A stretch of DNA of 64,000 bases from positions 62,001-126,000 of the forward strand of contig DAHUYM010000006.1 in NCBI GenBank assembly GCA_027315205.1, read 5' to 3'. The position numbers and the translations under genes are program-made. Below, piece after piece: positions 10,448 through 18,741 of the stretch. The notes under the pieces are model-generated. The model had not been told where the DNA came from. It saw only the letters and a program-made list of their open reading frames with translations, and made no database searches. Positions within the stretch are counted from its first letter, which is position 1, and every line of letters begins with the position of its first letter. The stretch comes from Leptospirillum sp. (GTDB lineage Bacteria; Nitrospirota; Leptospirillia; Leptospirillales; Leptospirillaceae).

Positions 10448-11355
10448 CTGGAACCCTGAAAAACCGCATAATGACCCCCGTGGGGATCCTGCTCTTCGCC
10501 CTCGGGACCAACATGACCCTTGCCGCGCTCAAAATCACATGGGGACATTCTATCGGCTCGGTTGGCATGCTTGCCGACGGGTACCATGCACTGCTCGACA
10601 CACTGTCCGATCTTATCTGCCTGGGCGGGGTCGTCGTGTCGCGACGCCCGCCGGATGCCGATCATCCCTATGGCCACTTCAAATTCGAGCCTCTGGCACA
10701 AATAGCCGTCGGAATTCTCCTTTTCATGACCGGATACGAAGTCCTGAGCCACAGCTACTTTGCCTTCCGGACGCATCACGCGCCTTCAGGCGCTGCTTCA
10801 TCGCTTGCGGTCATGGTATTATCGATGGGGCTTCAGGTTTTCCTCGTGGCTCTCGAGACACGGGTGGGGCACGCCGCCAAAAGCCCACTCGTCAAAGCCG
10901 ATGCGGCGCATATACGGTCGGATCTTTTCGCTTCCCTATCCGTGATCGTCGGGCTCCTGGCTTCGGACGCGGGCTATGCGGTGACAGACCCGATCGTCGG
11001 AATCCTGATCGCCTTCATCATCGGCAAGACAGGATTTGAACTCCTCAAGGAAGGGACCATGGTACTTTCCGACCGGAGCCCTCTCGATCCGGAGGTCATC
11101 GTGAAACTCGCAATGGAAACGCCGGGAGTGCTCGGATGCCATGCGGTCCGATCCCGGGGTCCCGAGTCCCGCATCTACATGGACATGAACCTCCACGTCG
11201 ACGACAACCTTTCCGTTGCTCGGGCCCATACTATTTCCCACGACGTGGAAAAACGTATAAAGGAGAGGTACCCTTCGGTCGTCGAAGTGGTCGTTCATAT
11301 CGAACCTTCCCAGGAGGAAGAATCCCATGCTTTCGATACCGCAAATCCGCACTGA
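10444..11355 (+). CDS. Cation diffusion facilitator (CDF) metal efflux protein
   Basis: A proton-coupled divalent-metal exporter of the inner membrane, about 303 residues. The family signature is clear: six hydrophobic segments with HSIGSVGMLADGYHALLD (the H/D metal site in TM2), HPYGHFKFEPL, and DAAHIRSDLFASLSVIVG in TM5, then a cytoplasmic dimerising domain ending VVVHIEPSQEEE. The GTG start overlaps the uvrA stop (GTGA); ATG 10471 is a shorter alternative. The 3' end overlaps pdxA by 29 nt. The metal (Zn, Fe, Mn or Co) cannot be decided from sequence alone. Confidence 0.9.
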   Translation: MTGTLKNRIMTPVGILLFALGTNMTLAALKITWGHSIGSVGMLADGYHALLDTLSDLICLGGVVVSRRPPDADHPYGHFKFEPLAQIAVGILLFMTGYEVLSHSYFAFRTHHAPSGAASSLAVMVLSMGLQVFLVALETRVGHAAKSPLVKADAAHIRSDLFASLSVIVGLLASDAGYAVTDPIVGILIAFIIGKTGFELLKEGTMVLSDRSPLDPEVIVKLAMETPGVLGCHAVRSRGPESRIYMDMNLHVDDNLSVARAHTISHDVEKRIKERYPSVVEVVVHIEPSQEEESHAFDTANPH

Positions 11356-12364
11356 TCCTGACAAGCCCCTGGCTATCACGATGGGGGACCCGGCCGGTAT
11401 CGGTCCAGAGGTCATTGTGAAAGGCTGGAGCGATTCCGGAGTGAGGAACATCCGGAAAATCGTCATCGGGGATCCCGATCTTTTCCGTTCGATCGCCCAA
11501 AAATACTCTCCGGAACTTATCATCAACACGATCGGCGACCCACAGATGGCATCGGACGATCCGGCCATCATGGACGTCTTGCTCCCCGAAAGCGGGGAAC
11601 CCCTCGACCCGGTCTCTCCGGGAACGAGCCAGGTCATGGCGGGACGCTGGTCGTACTACTGCATCAAAACCGGCGTCGATCTTTCGATGGACAGACGGGT
11701 TTCGGCGATCGTCACCGCCCCGATCAACAAAAAAGTCCTCCAGGCGGCCGGGTTCCAGTATCCCGGGCATACCGAGCTCATCGCCAAGATGACGAAAACG
11801 GAAAAGTTCGGAATGATGCTGATAGGGGGGCCACTGCGCGTCATTCTCGTTACCACGCATATCCCGTTCAGGGAGATCGCCGACCGCATCACGTCCGAAC
11901 GCGTTCTTGACACAATCCGGCTTGCTGCAAGAGCCATGGAAATGTTCTCCGTCCCTTCGCCGAAAATCGCTGTCGCCGCCCTGAATCCCCACGCCGGCGA
12001 AGCATCCCTCTTCGGCGACGAGGAAAGCCGATGCATTTTTCCCGCCGTTCTCGAAGCCCGTTCCGAAGGGATCGACGTGGACGGCCCCCTTCCGGCCGAT
12101 ACCTTGTTTGCGAAGGCGGCACAGGGGAAATTCGACGTCGTCGTCTCCCAGTACCACGACCAGGGCTTGATCCCGCTCAAAATGCTGTCCTTCGGACTGG
12201 GAATCAACGTAACGATCGGCATTCCGATTATCCGGACGTCCGTCGATCACGGAACGGCCTACGATATCGTCGGAAAAGGCATCGCCCAGCCCGGCAGCCT
12301 GATCGCGGCGATCCGGCTTGCGGCGCAGCTGGTTGAAAAACAAGGAGTGTTGGCGGAAAAATAG
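11327..12364 (+). CDS. pdxA: 4-hydroxythreonine-4-phosphate dehydrogenase
   Basis: PdxA oxidises 4-phosphohydroxy-L-threonine in the DXP-dependent pyridoxal phosphate pathway. The 345-residue frame shows LAITMGDPAGIGPEVIVK, the metal-binding GHTELIAKMT, the LVTTHIPFREI segment, ALNPHAGE, and the C-terminal YHDQGLIPLK and RTSVDHGTAYDI motifs, all diagnostic. ATG 11327 has AGGAGG just upstream, inside the end of the CDF gene. It is the last gene of the rsmA-pdxA operon; a perfect palindrome follows. Catalytic and metal residues appear intact. Confidence 0.96.
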   Translation: MLSIPQIRTDPDKPLAITMGDPAGIGPEVIVKGWSDSGVRNIRKIVIGDPDLFRSIAQKYSPELIINTIGDPQMASDDPAIMDVLLPESGEPLDPVSPGTSQVMAGRWSYYCIKTGVDLSMDRRVSAIVTAPINKKVLQAAGFQYPGHTELIAKMTKTEKFGMMLIGGPLRVILVTTHIPFREIADRITSERVLDTIRLAARAMEMFSVPSPKIAVAALNPHAGEASLFGDEESRCIFPAVLEARSEGIDVDGPLPADTLFAKAAQGKFDVVVSQYHDQGLIPLKMLSFGLGINVTIGIPIIRTSVDHGTAYDIVGKGIAQPGSLIAAIRLAAQLVEKQGVLAEK

Positions 12365-12398: not shown

Positions 12399-12795
12399 AG
12401 GGATTGAAGGTAAACAGGCCTCAATGGACCATCGGTTCAGTTTTTTCCGTTTCCTGACGTGGGGATCTCGCGATCGCCGGCCCCTTACATGCCGGAACTC
12501 CCGGGGCGTTGGCACGGCCGGTCCTGGTTCGTCCCTCTCTGGCACAAGATCCCCGGCTTCGATACGACAGCGGGGTTCTTCGCGGGAAACATCGTTCCTT
12601 ATCCCATGGTCCTCATCCGGATCCCGACGTCGCACCCGCGGAACGACCTTGCCATTTTCCGGGTTTCAACAAACGCGGTCAACGAAAAGGATTGTTAATT
12701 TTAAAAGGAGCGGCAACTGCCCGATCCGTTCGTTGACACAGATCGAGACTTGACTTCCGGCATGCAGGAAGACCCCCCTTTGAAGAAGGGATTTC
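12399..12795. other. Gap between pdxA and the GGDEF gene
   Basis: About 400 nt with no gene I can support. A plus-strand frame (ATG 12488 to 12698, 69 codons) has a plausible composition but no ribosome site and no recognisable motif. The last 130 nt turn AT-rich (near 12690-12705) and contain TTGACA at 12734, which may belong to a promoter for the large signalling gene, but I find no convincing -10 partner. Confidence 0.3.
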
Positions 12796-15700
12796 ATGAC
12801 GTCCGATGACCCGATCGACATCAAGGAAGAACGGCTCCGGATCTCACAAGCCCTCCTGATTGCGACGGGAACCCTTGCCCGCCAAACGGAACCGATGGAA
12901 GTCCTTCGTGCTGTGTGCGATGCCCTTGTCCGCGTTTCTCCCCGCATCCGGCTTGCATGGACGGCGTTCGGAGATTTCGCGAATTGCGAGATCCGTCCCC
13001 AGTACGCCGCAGGTCCGGAAAAACCTTATGCCGATTGGCTGGTGATCGGACTCTCGCCCGAAGAATTGAAAGGACCGGCGAGAACCTCCCTGGCCTTCCG
13101 CAAAGCAACGGTCGCACATTATACGGAAGACCTGTCCCTGAATGTCTCCTCCTGGAGAGAAAAAGCTTTGGCCCATGGGCTCGAATCGAGTCTTTCCCTC
13201 CCTTTCTACGCCCAGAATTCCCCTTATTGCGGTTTCGTCTCCCTGTACTCCGACCGTCCTGAGTATTTCGACCGGGTTGGTATCGATCTTTTCGAGGCCT
13301 TCGGGAACCTGGCCACGGTTTCGATCCAGAGGGCCTTTGAGGAAGCGGCCCGGAGCCGTTTCCAAGCGGTCCTCGACGCAACTCCCGAAAGCATCCTCAT
13401 TTTCCATCCCCAATCCTTCCGCATCCTGTTTGCGAACCGGGAATCCGAATTTTCGCTGGGATACGCCGTTTCCGAACTTCTGGCCATGGACGTGTCCGAC
13501 CTCATCCCCATTCCCCGGGAAGGCCTGGAGTCTCTGCTTGATCCCCTGCTCACCGGACAGCAGAGTTCCCTGGTTCTCGAAACCCTTCAAAAGAAAAAAG
13601 ACGGCACGTTCTATCCGGCGGAGGTTTTCTTTCAGCCCAGGACAGAGTCAGACAGATCCCGGACCGTCCTTTCGGTCAGCCGGAACATCTCGCGCCGAAA
13701 AGCTGAACAGGCCATAAATGCCCATCGTGCGAAAGGACTTGAAAACCTCGTCTCCGGAGCGCCGATGGATGAAATCCTGTCGGACGTGCAGGTCTGGACC
13801 GAATCGAAGATTTCCGGACTGCGAGGGGGATTCGTCACCTATTCCCGGTTCACCGAACGGTTCGAGCGGATCGGGCGCTCTTCCCTCCCTCCCCCCTTCT
13901 GGGACGCCTTGATTGAAGCCTTACCCCACCCTTCTACCAGACCTTTGTCGCCGATCTTCTCCAGCGGAAAGCGCTTGACGTCCCTGAAAGCCCGCGAGCT
14001 TGCGAATTCGGACAGAAATTTGGCTCCGGTCTTCGATCGGGAATCCATCGAGGACATCTGGATCCTTCCTCTCCTGGCAAACGACCGGCAACTCCTGGGA
14101 CTCTGGATTCTTTTTACGCCCGGTCCCCGGCAGCCGATGGAAAACGAACAATCCCTTCTCGATAACCAGCAGTCCTTCTCGAGCCTTGTCATGGCCCACT
14201 GGGAAAACGAAAGGCGCATCCGGATCCAGAGAGGCGCCTTGGAATCCCTCCCGCATTCCCTGGGAATCCTCGATGCCCGCCCTCCGGATTACAAAGTGGT
14301 GTATGTCAACCCGGCCTTCCAGAAAATGACGGGATACACCCTGGGTGAGGTCCTCAAGGAAAACGGGTTGCACTGGATCCGGCAATCCGCGACGCCCGAA
14401 GCGTTCTCCGCCATCAAGTACGCCCTCGAATGCGGCACACCCCTCAAGATTGAAATCCCGTTCGCCAAAAAAGGTGGCCCGGATTTATGGACGATGCTCG
14501 ATATCAATCCGATCCGGGACCCGGAAGGAAACGTCATCTACTTCGTCTTCGTCCGGACCGACATCACCGAACGGAAGAAGGCCGAAGAAAAAACCCTCAG
14601 GCAGTCGAAGCTCCTCGAAACGATGCTCGCATCCATGCCCCTCCCGGTTTTCCATCTGACCGTCGAAGGTTCGTTCCAGGGATACAACGACGCGTTCGCC
14701 CAGTTCGCGGGAATCGGAAAAACCGAATGGCTGGGGAAACACATCAATGACGTCCTGGATCCCCGCCTTTCCGGTCCACTGGCCGAATACAGCCGCCGGA
14801 TCCTCCGGACCCGGGACACCGTCCGGGCGGAACTCCCCGTCCCCATGCCGGACGGAAGCGAAGACCGAACGGTTGTTCTTCAAATCGCCCCGATCCTGGC
14901 TCAAAACAATACGGTCGACGGACTGGTCGCCTCCTTCATGGACCTGACCGAACGGGTACGAACCGAACAGAGGCTGAGGGAATCCGAAGACAAATACCGC
15001 CGGGTGATCAACGATGCACCCGACGGGATTTACCTCTTCGACCCCGACACCCTGAAGATCCTGGATGCGAACCCCATTTTCACCGATATGGTGGGCTATC
15101 ACTTCCGGGAGGTCATCCTCGGGACTCCCATAACGGACCTCAACCTGTCGGACAGGGCCGAAATCGACGAGCGCATCCGGCAGCTCAAGGAGACCGGCAG
15201 ACATTCGACAAACGTGCGTCGCCTCTACCGTCGGAAAGACGGTACCATGTTCCACGCCAGCACCAGCGCTTCCCTGATCCCTTATGGGGGCCGGAACGCG
15301 ATCCTCGTTCAGGTGAGGGACATCACCCGGGAAGTTGAAACCGAAGGAATCAACGGGATTTCGACCGAACTGGACCGGATGATTCTCAACGGGATGCCCA
15401 TGGACTCGCTCCTCGAGTTCGTCACCCAACGGCTGTTCGAGATATTTTCCCTTTTCTCCGTTTCGATTCTCCTGGTCGAACCCGAAGGAACGCTCAGGCC
15501 GGTCGGTGTCGTCATCCGGGCCCCAACCCTTCTGCCCGAATACAAGAAACTGCTCTCGCTTTTCCGATGGGACGACACTCCCGAAGGACAGACCACCGTC
15601 GGGAAGGCGATCCGCACGGGGGAACCCCACATCGTCGAACGCCGCGCCATTCGATACGATGCTGTCCGGCATTTTTGCGAGGAACACGGGATCACTGCGG

Positions 15701-17943
15701 TTCTTTCGGTCCCCATCCGAAGAAATGGCTCATCGGTGCCGTGGGGAGCGCTGGCCGTCACCGTGACGCTCCGGAATGTCCTTACCCCCTCGGTCGGAAA
15801 ACTTCTTGAGGAACTCTCGGAGAAAATCGGGCACGCCTTTTCCCGTTTCGAGGAACAAAGCGAAATCCGGCTCCAGAAAGTCGCCATGGAGACGACTCCG
15901 ACCCCCATGCTCATCACCGATTCCCAGGGACATTTCAAATGGGCCAATTCTTCGTTCCTGAAGAAAAATCGCATCTCAGCCAAAGAACTCGAGGGGACGA
16001 TCCCCCCTCTTTTCTCGGGAACCCTCTCCGACCCTGGCTTTTACGAAAAACTCTGGGAAACGGTCCGTGCAGGGAAAACATTTTTCGGAGAATTCGTAAA
16101 TCATGCGAAAGATGGCTCTTCGTACACGGCGGAAACACGCATCACCCCAATCTTCAACCCCGACGAATCGATCTCGCACCTCATCGTCGTCCAGAACGAC
16201 GTGACCGAAAAGAAAATCCTTGACGAAGCCCTGCGCCGGCAAGCGTACTTCGATCCCCTGACCTATCTTCCCAACCGGGCCCGACTGAACGACATCCTCG
16301 ACCGGTCCATGGTTGAAACACGAAGCGAAGGGAGCCAGCTTGCCTTATGCTTCCTGGATCTCGACGGATTCAAGCCGGTGAACGACCGCTTCGGTCACGA
16401 GGCCGGGGACAGGGTCCTGATCGAAGTCGCCAACCGCCTGACCCGTATCGTTCGCACGGAAGATACTGTCGCCCGCATCGGGGGAGATGAATTTATCCTC
16501 GTTCTTCCCCGGGTGACCGACCGGACCTCCTTTCAGGGAATGATGGAAAGGATCCTCGAAACCGTTTCCGTCCCCTTCGAAATCGACAACGAACAGATTT
16601 TCCTGACCGCCAGCATCGGGGTCACTTTCTTTCCCGACGACAACGTCGACCCTGACATCCTTGTCCGGCATGCGGACCTCGCTATGTACAAGGCGAAAAA
16701 GAACGGAAACAACACCTACGCGATCTTCAATCCGGGCGAAGAGACCGGAACCCGTCAGGGCGACCGCATGTCCGCCCGTGTCATGAATGGTCTGGAAACC
16801 GGGGCATTCTCCCTTGTATTCCAGCCGGAGATTGACCTCGAAACGGGGGGCGTTTCCTCGTTCGAATCCCTCCTCCGGTGGGATGAGCCCGATAACGATC
16901 GGATGGAGGCCCGGACCTTCCTCCCTCAGTTGGGCCGAAAACCGGTGGCCCGAGCTCTTCAGGATCTCCTGTTCGATCAGGCCGGGGAAGCCTTGAAGAC
17001 GTTCCAAAGGCTCGAAATCGGAATCCCTTTCAGCGTCAACATTCCTGGATGGTTCCTGAAGACGCCAGGATTCCTCGACCGACTGGACAGGATATTCGAA
17101 CCACTCCCTTCCGTTTCGAAGGAGAGCCTGATACTGGAAATCACCGATTTCATGCCGTTCGACAAGGACCGGGATATTCTCGGTGTCCTCGAGTCGTGCC
17201 GAAGGATGGGGGTTGGCCTGTTCCTGAGCGGCTGCCATTCGGGGTGGGGAATGATCGATTTTTTCCGGAACTGGCCTATCCAGAAAGTGAAGGCCGATCC
17301 GGACCTGACATCCCTGATCACCGACGACCCGCTGAAGTTCAGCCTTTTCGAAAGCCTGTCGAACCTCGCCCAGATCTTTCGTAAAGAGGTCACGGCCGTG
17401 GGCGTTGAAAATCTTTCGACGGTGCGCCTCATCCAAAAAACCGGGGTCCGCTACTTCCAGGGGAACATCCTTTCTCCCCCCATTCCTATCTCCGATATTC
17501 CCCGATTCCTGTCCGAAGTCGAAACCCGACCTCTCAACGTCACCCTTCCGGGTGACGCCGCGTCCCCTTCGAGCGATTTTCCCTATCTTCTAGGGTATCT
17601 CGATCACCAGCGGGCGATCCGACGGCTCATCGAACTTGTCGAAACGGGGCGTCCGTTCCCCTATCCCCTCGAAGAGGCCGCGAATCCCAGACTATGCCGT
17701 CTCGGCCGGTGGTATTACGGCGAAGGGGAAAAACGATTCGGAGGCGTACCGGAATATAGGGAAATCGGAACACTCCACGAGAAGGCCCATGCCCTCACCG
17801 TCAAGATCCTCCAGCTTCACCTTGAAAACCGTGACGAAGAGGCACGGAATGTGTTCCCTGCAATCCTGTCGCTCCGGAATCGCATCCTTGGTTCGCTGGA
17901 TGCCCTGGACAACAACTCCCGCAGTTTGTTTCCAAACCGGTGA
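12796..17943 (+). CDS. Multi-sensor GAF/PAS-GGDEF-EAL-CZB cyclic-di-GMP protein
   Basis: A 1715-residue cytoplasmic signalling protein with no membrane segment. In approximate order: GAF (10-185), PAS (190-310), GAF-like (315-480), PAS (490-600), PAS (605-725), PAS (730-850), GAF (855-1015), PAS (1025-1135), GGDEF (1140-1305), EAL (1325-1570) and a C-terminal CZB zinc-sensing domain (1595-1715). The diguanylate cyclase motif GGDEF is intact at 1229-1233, with an inhibitory-site RTED five residues before it. The EAL domain is degenerate: ESLLRW replaces EALLRW, SGCHSG stands where DDFGTG is expected, and VGVEN replaces EGVE. It is probably not a phosphodiesterase. CZB ligands fit H1604, C1634, H1661 and H1665. 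Start ATG 12796 follows GAAGGG. The gene appears monocistronic. Confidence 0.93.
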   Translation: MTSDDPIDIKEERLRISQALLIATGTLARQTEPMEVLRAVCDALVRVSPRIRLAWTAFGDFANCEIRPQYAAGPEKPYADWLVIGLSPEELKGPARTSLAFRKATVAHYTEDLSLNVSSWREKALAHGLESSLSLPFYAQNSPYCGFVSLYSDRPEYFDRVGIDLFEAFGNLATVSIQRAFEEAARSRFQAVLDATPESILIFHPQSFRILFANRESEFSLGYAVSELLAMDVSDLIPIPREGLESLLDPLLTGQQSSLVLETLQKKKDGTFYPAEVFFQPRTESDRSRTVLSVSRNISRRKAEQAINAHRAKGLENLVSGAPMDEILSDVQVWTESKISGLRGGFVTYSRFTERFERIGRSSLPPPFWDALIEALPHPSTRPLSPIFSSGKRLTSLKARELANSDRNLAPVFDRESIEDIWILPLLANDRQLLGLWILFTPGPRQPMENEQSLLDNQQSFSSLVMAHWENERRIRIQRGALESLPHSLGILDARPPDYKVVYVNPAFQKMTGYTLGEVLKENGLHWIRQSATPEAFSAIKYALECGTPLKIEIPFAKKGGPDLWTMLDINPIRDPEGNVIYFVFVRTDITERKKAEEKTLRQSKLLETMLASMPLPVFHLTVEGSFQGYNDAFAQFAGIGKTEWLGKHINDVLDPRLSGPLAEYSRRILRTRDTVRAELPVPMPDGSEDRTVVLQIAPILAQNNTVDGLVASFMDLTERVRTEQRLRESEDKYRRVINDAPDGIYLFDPDTLKILDANPIFTDMVGYHFREVILGTPITDLNLSDRAEIDERIRQLKETGRHSTNVRRLYRRKDGTMFHASTSASLIPYGGRNAILVQVRDITREVETEGINGISTELDRMILNGMPMDSLLEFVTQRLFEIFSLFSVSILLVEPEGTLRPVGVVIRAPTLLPEYKKLLSLFRWDDTPEGQTTVGKAIRTGEPHIVERRAIRYDAVRHFCEEHGITAVLSVPIRRNGSSVPWGALAVTVTLRNVLTPSVGKLLEELSEKIGHAFSRFEEQSEIRLQKVAMETTPTPMLITDSQGHFKWANSSFLKKNRISAKELEGTIPPLFSGTLSDPGFYEKLWETVRAGKTFFGEFVNHAKDGSSYTAETRITPIFNPDESISHLIVVQNDVTEKKILDEALRRQAYFDPLTYLPNRARLNDILDRSMVETRSEGSQLALCFLDLDGFKPVNDRFGHEAGDRVLIEVANRLTRIVRTEDTVARIGGDEFILVLPRVTDRTSFQGMMERILETVSVPFEIDNEQIFLTASIGVTFFPDDNVDPDILVRHADLAMYKAKKNGNNTYAIFNPGEETGTRQGDRMSARVMNGLETGAFSLVFQPEIDLETGGVSSFESLLRWDEPDNDRMEARTFLPQLGRKPVARALQDLLFDQAGEALKTFQRLEIGIPFSVNIPGWFLKTPGFLDRLDRIFEPLPSVSKESLILEITDFMPFDKDRDILGVLESCRRMGVGLFLSGCHSGWGMIDFFRNWPIQKVKADPDLTSLITDDPLKFSLFESLSNLAQIFRKEVTAVGVENLSTVRLIQKTGVRYFQGNILSPPIPISDIPRFLSEVETRPLNVTLPGDAASPSSDFPYLLGYLDHQRAIRRLIELVETGRPFPYPLEEAANPRLCRLGRWYYGEGEKRFGGVPEYREIGTLHEKAHALTVKILQLHLENRDEEARNVFPAILSLRNRILGSLDALDNNSRSLFPNR

Positions 17944-18084: not shown

Positions 18085-18741
18085 ATGAAGATGAGTCGCC
18101 ATCGATTTTTTTCGAACCGTTTATTTGTCACGGCATGCCTGATCGGAGCACTCTTGCTCGCGACGGGCTTGACCATCCCCAGGACGGCGCGTGCCGCTTC
18201 TTCAGGCGCAGGCGTCTGGGACCTGCTTGTATTCGGGAACTACGACATGGTGTCGGGGATCGACACCCAGAACCTGGTCTCCACCGGCGGGGGTTCCAAT
18301 ACGTTTCCAAATACGTTCCAGAACGGGTACGGCGCAGGCTTGTCCGTTGTCTACTGGTTCAACGACGTTCTGGCGTTTCGCGTCACGGCCCAAGGGAATC
18401 TCTTCCAGGGGCAGACCGGATACGCATACGATGGAAATTCTCTCGAGTCCGCACCCCTGAGCGGCGGGTTCGAGGTCAAGCTTTACGGGGACGAAGACTA
18501 TTTTTTGTATGGGGTCATCGATGCCGGAGCCGCTTACGAGGACGAGGTCACCGGTTCTTCCCCGACCCTTTCGAACAGTCTCGCACATTCCTGGTCGGCC
18601 TACGGAGATGCGGGGTTGGGGGTGAACTTGAACTGGGTTTTCCTGGAAGTGAAATTTGCCTATCTGCCCCAGGCCCTTCCCCAGTACAGCAATCAGAACG
18701 CGTTCTACTATATCCCGTTTACCGCAGGTTTCAACTTCTGA
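18085..18741 (+). CDS. Small outer-membrane beta-barrel protein, unknown role
   Basis: 218 residues with a long signal peptide (LFVTACLIGALLLATGL, then ARA-A cleavage). The mature part alternates hydrophobic and polar residues and is rich in aromatics, Gly and Asn. It ends in FTAGFNF, an outer-membrane type C-terminal phenylalanine. Periodic strands (YGAGLSVVYWF, FLYGVIDAGAAY, YGDAGLGVNLNW) suggest an eight-stranded barrel like OmpA/OmpX-type porin-like proteins. ATG 18085 has AAGGAG upstream. No family was recognised with confidence. It lies between the c-di-GMP protein and a convergent hairpin. Confidence 0.75.
   Translation: MKMSRHRFFSNRLFVTACLIGALLLATGLTIPRTARAASSGAGVWDLLVFGNYDMVSGIDTQNLVSTGGGSNTFPNTFQNGYGAGLSVVYWFNDVLAFRVTAQGNLFQGQTGYAYDGNSLESAPLSGGFEVKLYGDEDYFLYGVIDAGAAYEDEVTGSSPTLSNSLAHSWSAYGDAGLGVNLNWVFLEVKFAYLPQALPQYSNQNAFYYIPFTAGFNF

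Follow-up and report, generated by a model that had tools for sequence, protein, structure and literature searches.

A candidate multi-sensor diguanylate cyclase from Leptospirillum with a degenerate EAL domain and a conserved predicted zinc site in its C-terminal CZB

The window, the whole 64,000-nucleotide stretch of Leptospirillum sp. DNA that was analysed, carries a long gene (Table 1) downstream of a gene at 11327-12364 which we take to be pdxA. The initial annotation, made from the DNA letters, had placed an intact GGDEF, a degenerate EAL and a C-terminal CZB domain in one reading frame of 1715 residues, and both Pfam and the motifs agree with it. The three domains follow one another in the order of the tandem GGDEF-EAL-CZB proteins (Pfam), behind an array of GAF and PAS modules in which PAS_9 matches five stretches, and the predicted arrangement of the domains in space is unsure (model pTM 0.52). 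A 109-aa ORF at 12424-12753 looks spurious, having a match neither in Pfam nor in the neighbouring loci searched. In the family loci examined, the cation diffusion facilitator (CDF) gene stands beside uvrA and pdxA; its product has HxxxD in both presumed metal-site helices, presumably a zinc-type pattern.

Table 1. Features of the locus, in positions of the window.
Feature	Coordinates	Strand	Evidence
Cation diffusion facilitator (CDF) neighbour, outside the system	10453..11355	+	Pfam
pdxA-like neighbour, anchor of the conserved neighbourhood	11327..12364	+	
Whole gene, 1715 aa, GAF-PAS-...-PAS-GAF-PAS-GGDEF-EAL(degenerate)-CZB	12796..17943	+	single open frame, Pfam
GAF_2, residues 33-178	12892..13329	+	Pfam 31.9 bits, cut-off 28.6
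PAS, about residues 188-290	13357..13665	+	PF00989, 30.6 bits, cut-off 22.6
PAS, residues 496-592	14281..14571	+	Pfam
PAS, residues 612-722	14629..14961	+	Pfam
PAS, residues 733-843	14992..15324	+	Pfam
GAF, residues 868-1015	15397..15840	+	Pfam
PAS directly N-terminal of GGDEF	15898..16209	+	PF13426, 41.1 bits
GGDEF domain, residues 1150-1306, intact catalytic motif	16243..16713	+	Pfam 160.2 bits
RxxD (RTED 1220-1223), candidate product-inhibition site, 5 residues ahead of GGDEF	16453..16464	+	
GGDEF motif, residues 1229-1233	16480..16494	+	
Degenerate EAL, residues 1329-1562	16780..17481	+	Pfam 129 bits, cut-off 31.3; alignment
D1451 at E268 position	17146..17148	+	alignment
S1478-G1479 at D295, D296 (DD pair of DDFGTG)	17227..17232	+	alignment
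V1535 at E352 position	17398..17400	+	alignment
CZB and flanking helices, residues 1595-1706	17578..17913	+	Pfam; model pLDDT 90.1; best chain 3t9o_B (DgcZ CZB)
Predicted zinc ligand H1604 (H22 of DgcZ)	17605..17607	+	
Predicted zinc ligand C1634 (C52 of DgcZ), possibly also a redox thiol	17695..17697	+	
Predicted zinc ligand H1661	17776..17778	+	
Predicted zinc ligand H1665	17788..17790	+	
Outer-membrane-type neighbour (OMP), other anchor	18085..18741	+	by eye; no Pfam match

In the family, two relatives share the order of the C-terminal domains, L033/L004 in genome G005 (45% over 609-1706) and L034/L005 in G004 (38%), and their hosts belong to other genera than the window genome. The neighbourhood uvrA-CDF-pdxA-[gene]-OMP is conserved in all three genomes and identifies the genes as orthologues by synteny; in G001 the contig ends inside the N-terminal piece of the gene. 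All four genomes examined that do not have the gene (G003, G007, G006 and G002) hold CDF-pdxA-OMP together with the OMP gene straight after pdxA, so that the gene either entered one lineage or disappeared from the others. Given this arrangement, the adjoining CDF transporter is not taken as evidence of a link to zinc. The trio measures 1715, 1297 and 1141 aa (from the first start), but neither the GGDEF motif nor the set of predicted zinc ligands changes.

LDLDGFK, ND..GH..GD, GGDEF and RxxD are all present in the window protein and in both orthologues (alignment). With the metal and GTP residues in place, the cyclase is intact as first annotated, and judged by its motifs the window protein probably makes c-di-GMP.

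The EAL domain was aligned with two EAL sequences, DosP and PA0575, and numbered after RocR, whose metal ligands are listed in a passage of PMC7911125 as E175, N233, E265, D295, D296 and E352. The window domain retains Q161, E175, R179, N233, E265, K316, E355 and Q372, and carries Ser for D295, Gly for D296, Val for E352 and Asp for E268. It thus misses the published phosphodiesterase metal-ligand set at D295, D296 and E352, and because these ligands are replaced, hydrolysis of c-di-GMP is very unlikely. The description of this EAL as degenerate is therefore correct: three metal or catalytic residues are gone even though the Pfam match holds.

Decay has gone further in the orthologues, where nearly all catalytic and ligand-binding residues are gone (alignment; patterns QSLRDDHDKTQ and DTVPAAGDRAQ versus QERNEEDDKEQ), and among the catalytic and pocket positions retained in the window EAL only Q372 is common to all three proteins. 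Pfam EAL scores in the trio are 129 (window), 99 and 67 bits, compared with 216-237 for three live EALs, while GGDEF scores stay at 155-166 bits where the EAL scores drop. The EAL region is nevertheless mostly unshortened in the trio (alignment), and the model of the window domain retains the EAL fold (Z 28-30 against active single EAL domains). The initial annotation had proposed the dead EAL as a ligand-binding platform, but the pocket is present only partly in the window protein and mostly lost in both syntenic orthologues, which does not support this proposal; the group as a whole is unlikely to have conserved c-di-GMP binding. Because the region keeps most of its length, the window model keeps the fold and the pocket residues are lost in the orthologues, a structural spacer or relay fits the EAL of this group better than a ligand platform.

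The CZB domain (PF13682, residues 1607-1671) scores 37.9 bits in the full protein and 42.7 bits in the C-terminal piece against a cut-off of 29.4, and its predicted ligand set of three His and one Cys (H1604/C1634/H1661/H1665) is spaced 30-27-4, which we take to be the spacing of H22/C52/H79/H83 in DgcZ; His22 and C52 are the two of these that PMC8262984 names. The CZB domain proposed earlier is credible on these grounds, and C1634, the residue then singled out for mutation, is indeed the predicted ligand Cys. All four ligands are kept in all three proteins of the trio, together with HQRAIRRL and GRPFPY; since both orthologues retain the domain with its four ligands, it is not a chance pattern, although the Pfam score is 32.1 bits in L033 and in L034, at 25.9 bits, falls below the cut-off. 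The CZB model has a pLDDT of 90.1 and its best VIA-align chain is the DgcZ CZB 3t9o_B (Z 11.9, rmsd 2.9, 116 aligned), with unrelated bundles reaching 11.7. Bundles of four helices are alike in general. Foldseek gave DgcZ an E-value of 0.28 and no match with E below 0.001, and nothing related to the CZB sequence turned up among solved structures (best E 0.18). The window CZB reads HQRA from its first His and so has no Trp three residues after it, unlike DgcZ and the CZB cyclase subgroup for which this Trp is reported in part of PMC8262984.

Pairwise identities within the trio are 61/52/62% for GGDEF, 37/27/27% for EAL and 56/46/43% for CZB, giving EAL-minus-GGDEF differences of -24, -25 and -35. 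Among 18 tandem proteins with a live EAL (153 pairs, not independent of one another) the mean difference is -1.1 (sd 5.7, lowest -15.6), and in the 124 live pairs with GGDEF identity of 45-75% CZB identity is 15-45%. Constraint has moved away from the EAL in the window group, and GGDEF and CZB have been retained.

These 18 proteins come from a wider census. A scan of genome contigs with the pattern CR[FL]G[KRQ]WYY or the ...DH motif kept 80 loci, 22 of which have EAL followed by CZB in one frame, 16 with GGDEF and six without (L142 among the six is cut); the 16 together with the plasmid proteins L082 (Aeromonas) and L081 (A. caldus) make up the 18. Every one of these relatives outside the family shows the full EAL signature and four zinc ligands by residue patterns, where the ligand count is partly by construction, since the scan patterns favour complete zinc sites, the EAL state is unbiased, and for L081 the first His is assigned from an alignment with gaps. 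The window protein departs from this live-EAL trait, which is common to all 18 tabulated relatives and is not a published criterion. Outside the 18, L083 from an A. caldus megaplasmid keeps the EAL residues and apparently has no first His (alignment). L081 itself is encoded on pACA1.1, a small mobilizable plasmid of Acidithiobacillus caldus, directly after a PilZ gene.

Within the family, 21 genomes were screened with a C-terminal tail profile (A7) and the hits reduced to 60 distinct ORFs, comprising 39 tandem proteins with GGDEF in view, six stand-alone EAL-CZB proteins, 11 chemoreceptor-like proteins and four fragments or others. The four ligands are found in none of the 22 tandem proteins whose EAL signature is intact and in three of the 17 where it is altered, all three being the window trio; the zinc site is thus incomplete in 36 of 39 and the window group is the exception. 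EAL and zinc site are both intact in all six stand-alone proteins. The unusual feature of the window group is that its EAL decays while the adjoining zinc site is retained. A general trade-off, by which a live EAL would exclude a complete zinc site, is not supported, since the 18 outside relatives have both; within the family the three altered-EAL cases with four ligands are a single orthologue group, and the GGDEF tree offers just two (starred branches) or three independent pairs, too few for a test.

The census also brought up other variants. The window genome encodes a paralogue, L035 (G000:C40:146500-152500, minus strand, 1173 aa), with a PAS/GAF-like-GGDEF arrangement, an EAL remnant of 55 bits and a CZB-like tail with ligands HCEH; L050 in G004 is orthologue-like, and L035 is a second case of EAL decay, which the trees place away from the window group. 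L039, L040, L045, L052 and L197 (L080) form a group spread across the family with a shared altered EAL signature (D295, D296 and K316 substituted, Asp at E265) and A/V-C-H-H as CZB ligands, and the conserved degenerate EAL of this group may be a real receptor. L036, L037, L043, L049, L051, L207, L218, L224 and L225 are GGDEF-EAL proteins with an intact EAL, whose CZB-like tails lack two to three zinc ligands; these tails are a ligand-poor CZB descendant absent from the Pfam CZB search of the family. L069:865-1995 (minus strand, G001) has CZB before GGDEF, the DgcZ-like order; its GGDEF motif is degenerate and its CZB, at 25.7 bits, scores below the threshold. Finally, L001:508-1848 (G000:C40), in the same genome as the window, is chemoreceptor-like (motif by eye) with a strong CZB of 67 bits, and has relatives in other members.

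The initial annotation regarded a CZB behind an EAL as exceptional; this order had in fact been published before, as the 18 tandem relatives also illustrate. In the portions of PMC8262984 used here, 10,140 CZB sequences fall into seven subgroups that include EAL-containing diguanylate cyclases and EAL-CZB proteins, and PMC6416229, likewise used in part, reports for Acidithiobacillia that 62 of 387 GGDEF-EAL proteins carry a CZB, with Protoglobin-GGDEF-EAL-CZB and PAS-GGDEF-EAL-CZB among the arrangements named. The literature searched, supplements aside, gave no CZB tied to a degenerate EAL, and matches for CZB with Leptospirillum concerned only Acidithiobacillus.

The GGDEF-EAL-CZB proteins of Acidithiobacillia (AFE_1712 and AFE_1725 in passages of PMC6416229) and of Proteobacteria (16 loci) share the domain order of the window protein and in some cases its PAS/GAF inputs, but the EAL signature, intact in the 18 tabulated proteins, is broken in the window group, which lies in Nitrospirota. 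E. coli DgcZ (CZB-GGDEF; PMC8262984 and PMC8846402, in part) has the three-His/one-Cys CZB and an intact GGDEF in common with the window protein; its CZB is N-terminal and it has neither an EAL nor a GAF/PAS array, whereas the window CZB is C-terminal and follows the EAL, outside the DgcZ-like definition (N-terminal CZB, C-terminal GGDEF) given in a Table 2 footnote of PMC8262984. Stand-alone EAL-CZB proteins (a subgroup in the same source, again in part; L066, L070, L072 and others) likewise have CZB directly after EAL, but without GGDEF and with an intact EAL. FimX and LapD (PMC7288161, in excerpt) resemble the window protein in a non-catalytic EAL adjoining GGDEF; theirs is a c-di-GMP receptor, while the window group has an intact GGDEF and a pocket that is not kept in the orthologues. 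The window group represents a derived form within a known family and not a new type of system.

Regarding its origin, on the GGDEF tree (61 rows) the trio groups with 11 proteobacterial tandem proteins, without firm support (92/69), and is separated from the other family tandems; a single clade of all family tandems receives an AU p of 0.0134, for a question posed after seeing the tree. On the CZB tree (42 rows) the trio joins the gammaproteobacterial tandem protein L087 (97/88). Together the two trees suggest that a live tandem GGDEF-EAL-CZB protein of proteobacterial type was acquired by the common ancestor of the genera and that its phosphodiesterase was lost later, a live-EAL ancestor we infer from sequence comparison. 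Composition rejects a recent foreign origin: GC3 is 0.62-0.74 in pieces of the gene and 0.69-0.72 in uvrA, pdxA and ftsK, so any transfer is old. On the CZB tree the CZB of L066 (G007), from this Nitrospirota family, is identical to that of L114 from a Nitrospirae bacterium.

We lean, with some reserve, towards reading the window protein as a multi-sensor diguanylate cyclase regulated by zinc through its C-terminal CZB, in which an EAL devoid of phosphodiesterase chemistry serves as spacer or relay. Its GGDEF would be active and product-inhibited, with the activity set by the GAF/PAS array and a C-terminal CZB dimer, and the folded EAL would connect cyclase and CZB. The ancestor would have resembled the live-EAL proteins of Proteobacteria, and the CZB would have been retained after the death of the EAL because of its regulation of the cyclase. 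In DgcZ, according to passages of PMC8262984, zinc inhibits the cyclase, the protein is active when free of zinc, and the CZB belongs to a homodimer. By analogy, zinc on the three-His/one-Cys site would hold the cyclase off and loss of zinc or oxidation of C1634 would release it, the logic of DgcZ acting through a longer lever of CZB dimer, EAL spacer and GGDEF. Coupling of zinc, or of thiol redox state, to c-di-GMP synthesis is the simplest reading of the predicted site, and most likely zinc binds, acts on the GGDEF and lowers its activity. That said, the target of the CZB could be dimerisation or a partner instead of GGDEF.

Among the alternatives, the CZB may be a relic too, or serve dimerisation only, with zinc no signal and regulation coming from the GAF/PAS array. 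Loss of the zinc site is common among the family tandems, as the 36 incomplete sites attest, and in L035, the paralogue from the window genome, the ligand positions read HCEH; yet the whole trio keeps the four ligands with both surrounding motifs, and its CZB identity is near that of GGDEF, which makes this explanation improbable. It is a little less probable still that the dead EAL is a c-di-GMP receptor of the FimX/LapD kind, feeding back on the cyclase with zinc as second input: the window EAL does retain eight pocket and catalytic positions, and its model also matches FimX EAL chains (Z 25-27, against 28-30 for the active EALs), but with the pocket kept in one of three orthologues these residues are more likely left over than selected. 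Least probable, and compatible with zinc control, is that C1634 senses oxidants and not zinc itself, in line with reports on DgcZ and TlpD with HOCl; C1634 is kept in a CRLG motif and the equivalent Cys of DgcZ reacts with HOCl (PMC8262984, in part), but a host-associated lifestyle is not in evidence.

Under the zinc-regulated cyclase reading, a further and more tentative idea concerns the history of the sensor. The CZB of live relatives may have the EAL as its target, in which case the window group switched the client of its sensor. Possibly, though we think it rather unlikely, a CZB that once regulated the adjacent phosphodiesterase was kept after its death and now regulates the cyclase beyond. 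If true, a link from zinc to degradation became one from zinc to synthesis, and the output of a sensor changed without loss of a domain.

The window genome, which belongs to Nitrospirota, encodes both a candidate CZB cyclase and a chemoreceptor-like CZB protein, a combination that would run contrary to two general statements in the consulted part of PMC8262984. CZB-linked c-di-GMP enzymes are hereby extended to Nitrospirota, where they would tie metal or redox state to c-di-GMP. The proteins described here form a natural series, all with intact GGDEF and zinc ligands, that runs from a live EAL in Proteobacteria through a dying one in the window protein to a nearly erased one in its orthologues, and this series makes it testable how a terminal sensor in a bifunctional GGDEF-EAL protein picks the enzyme that it controls.
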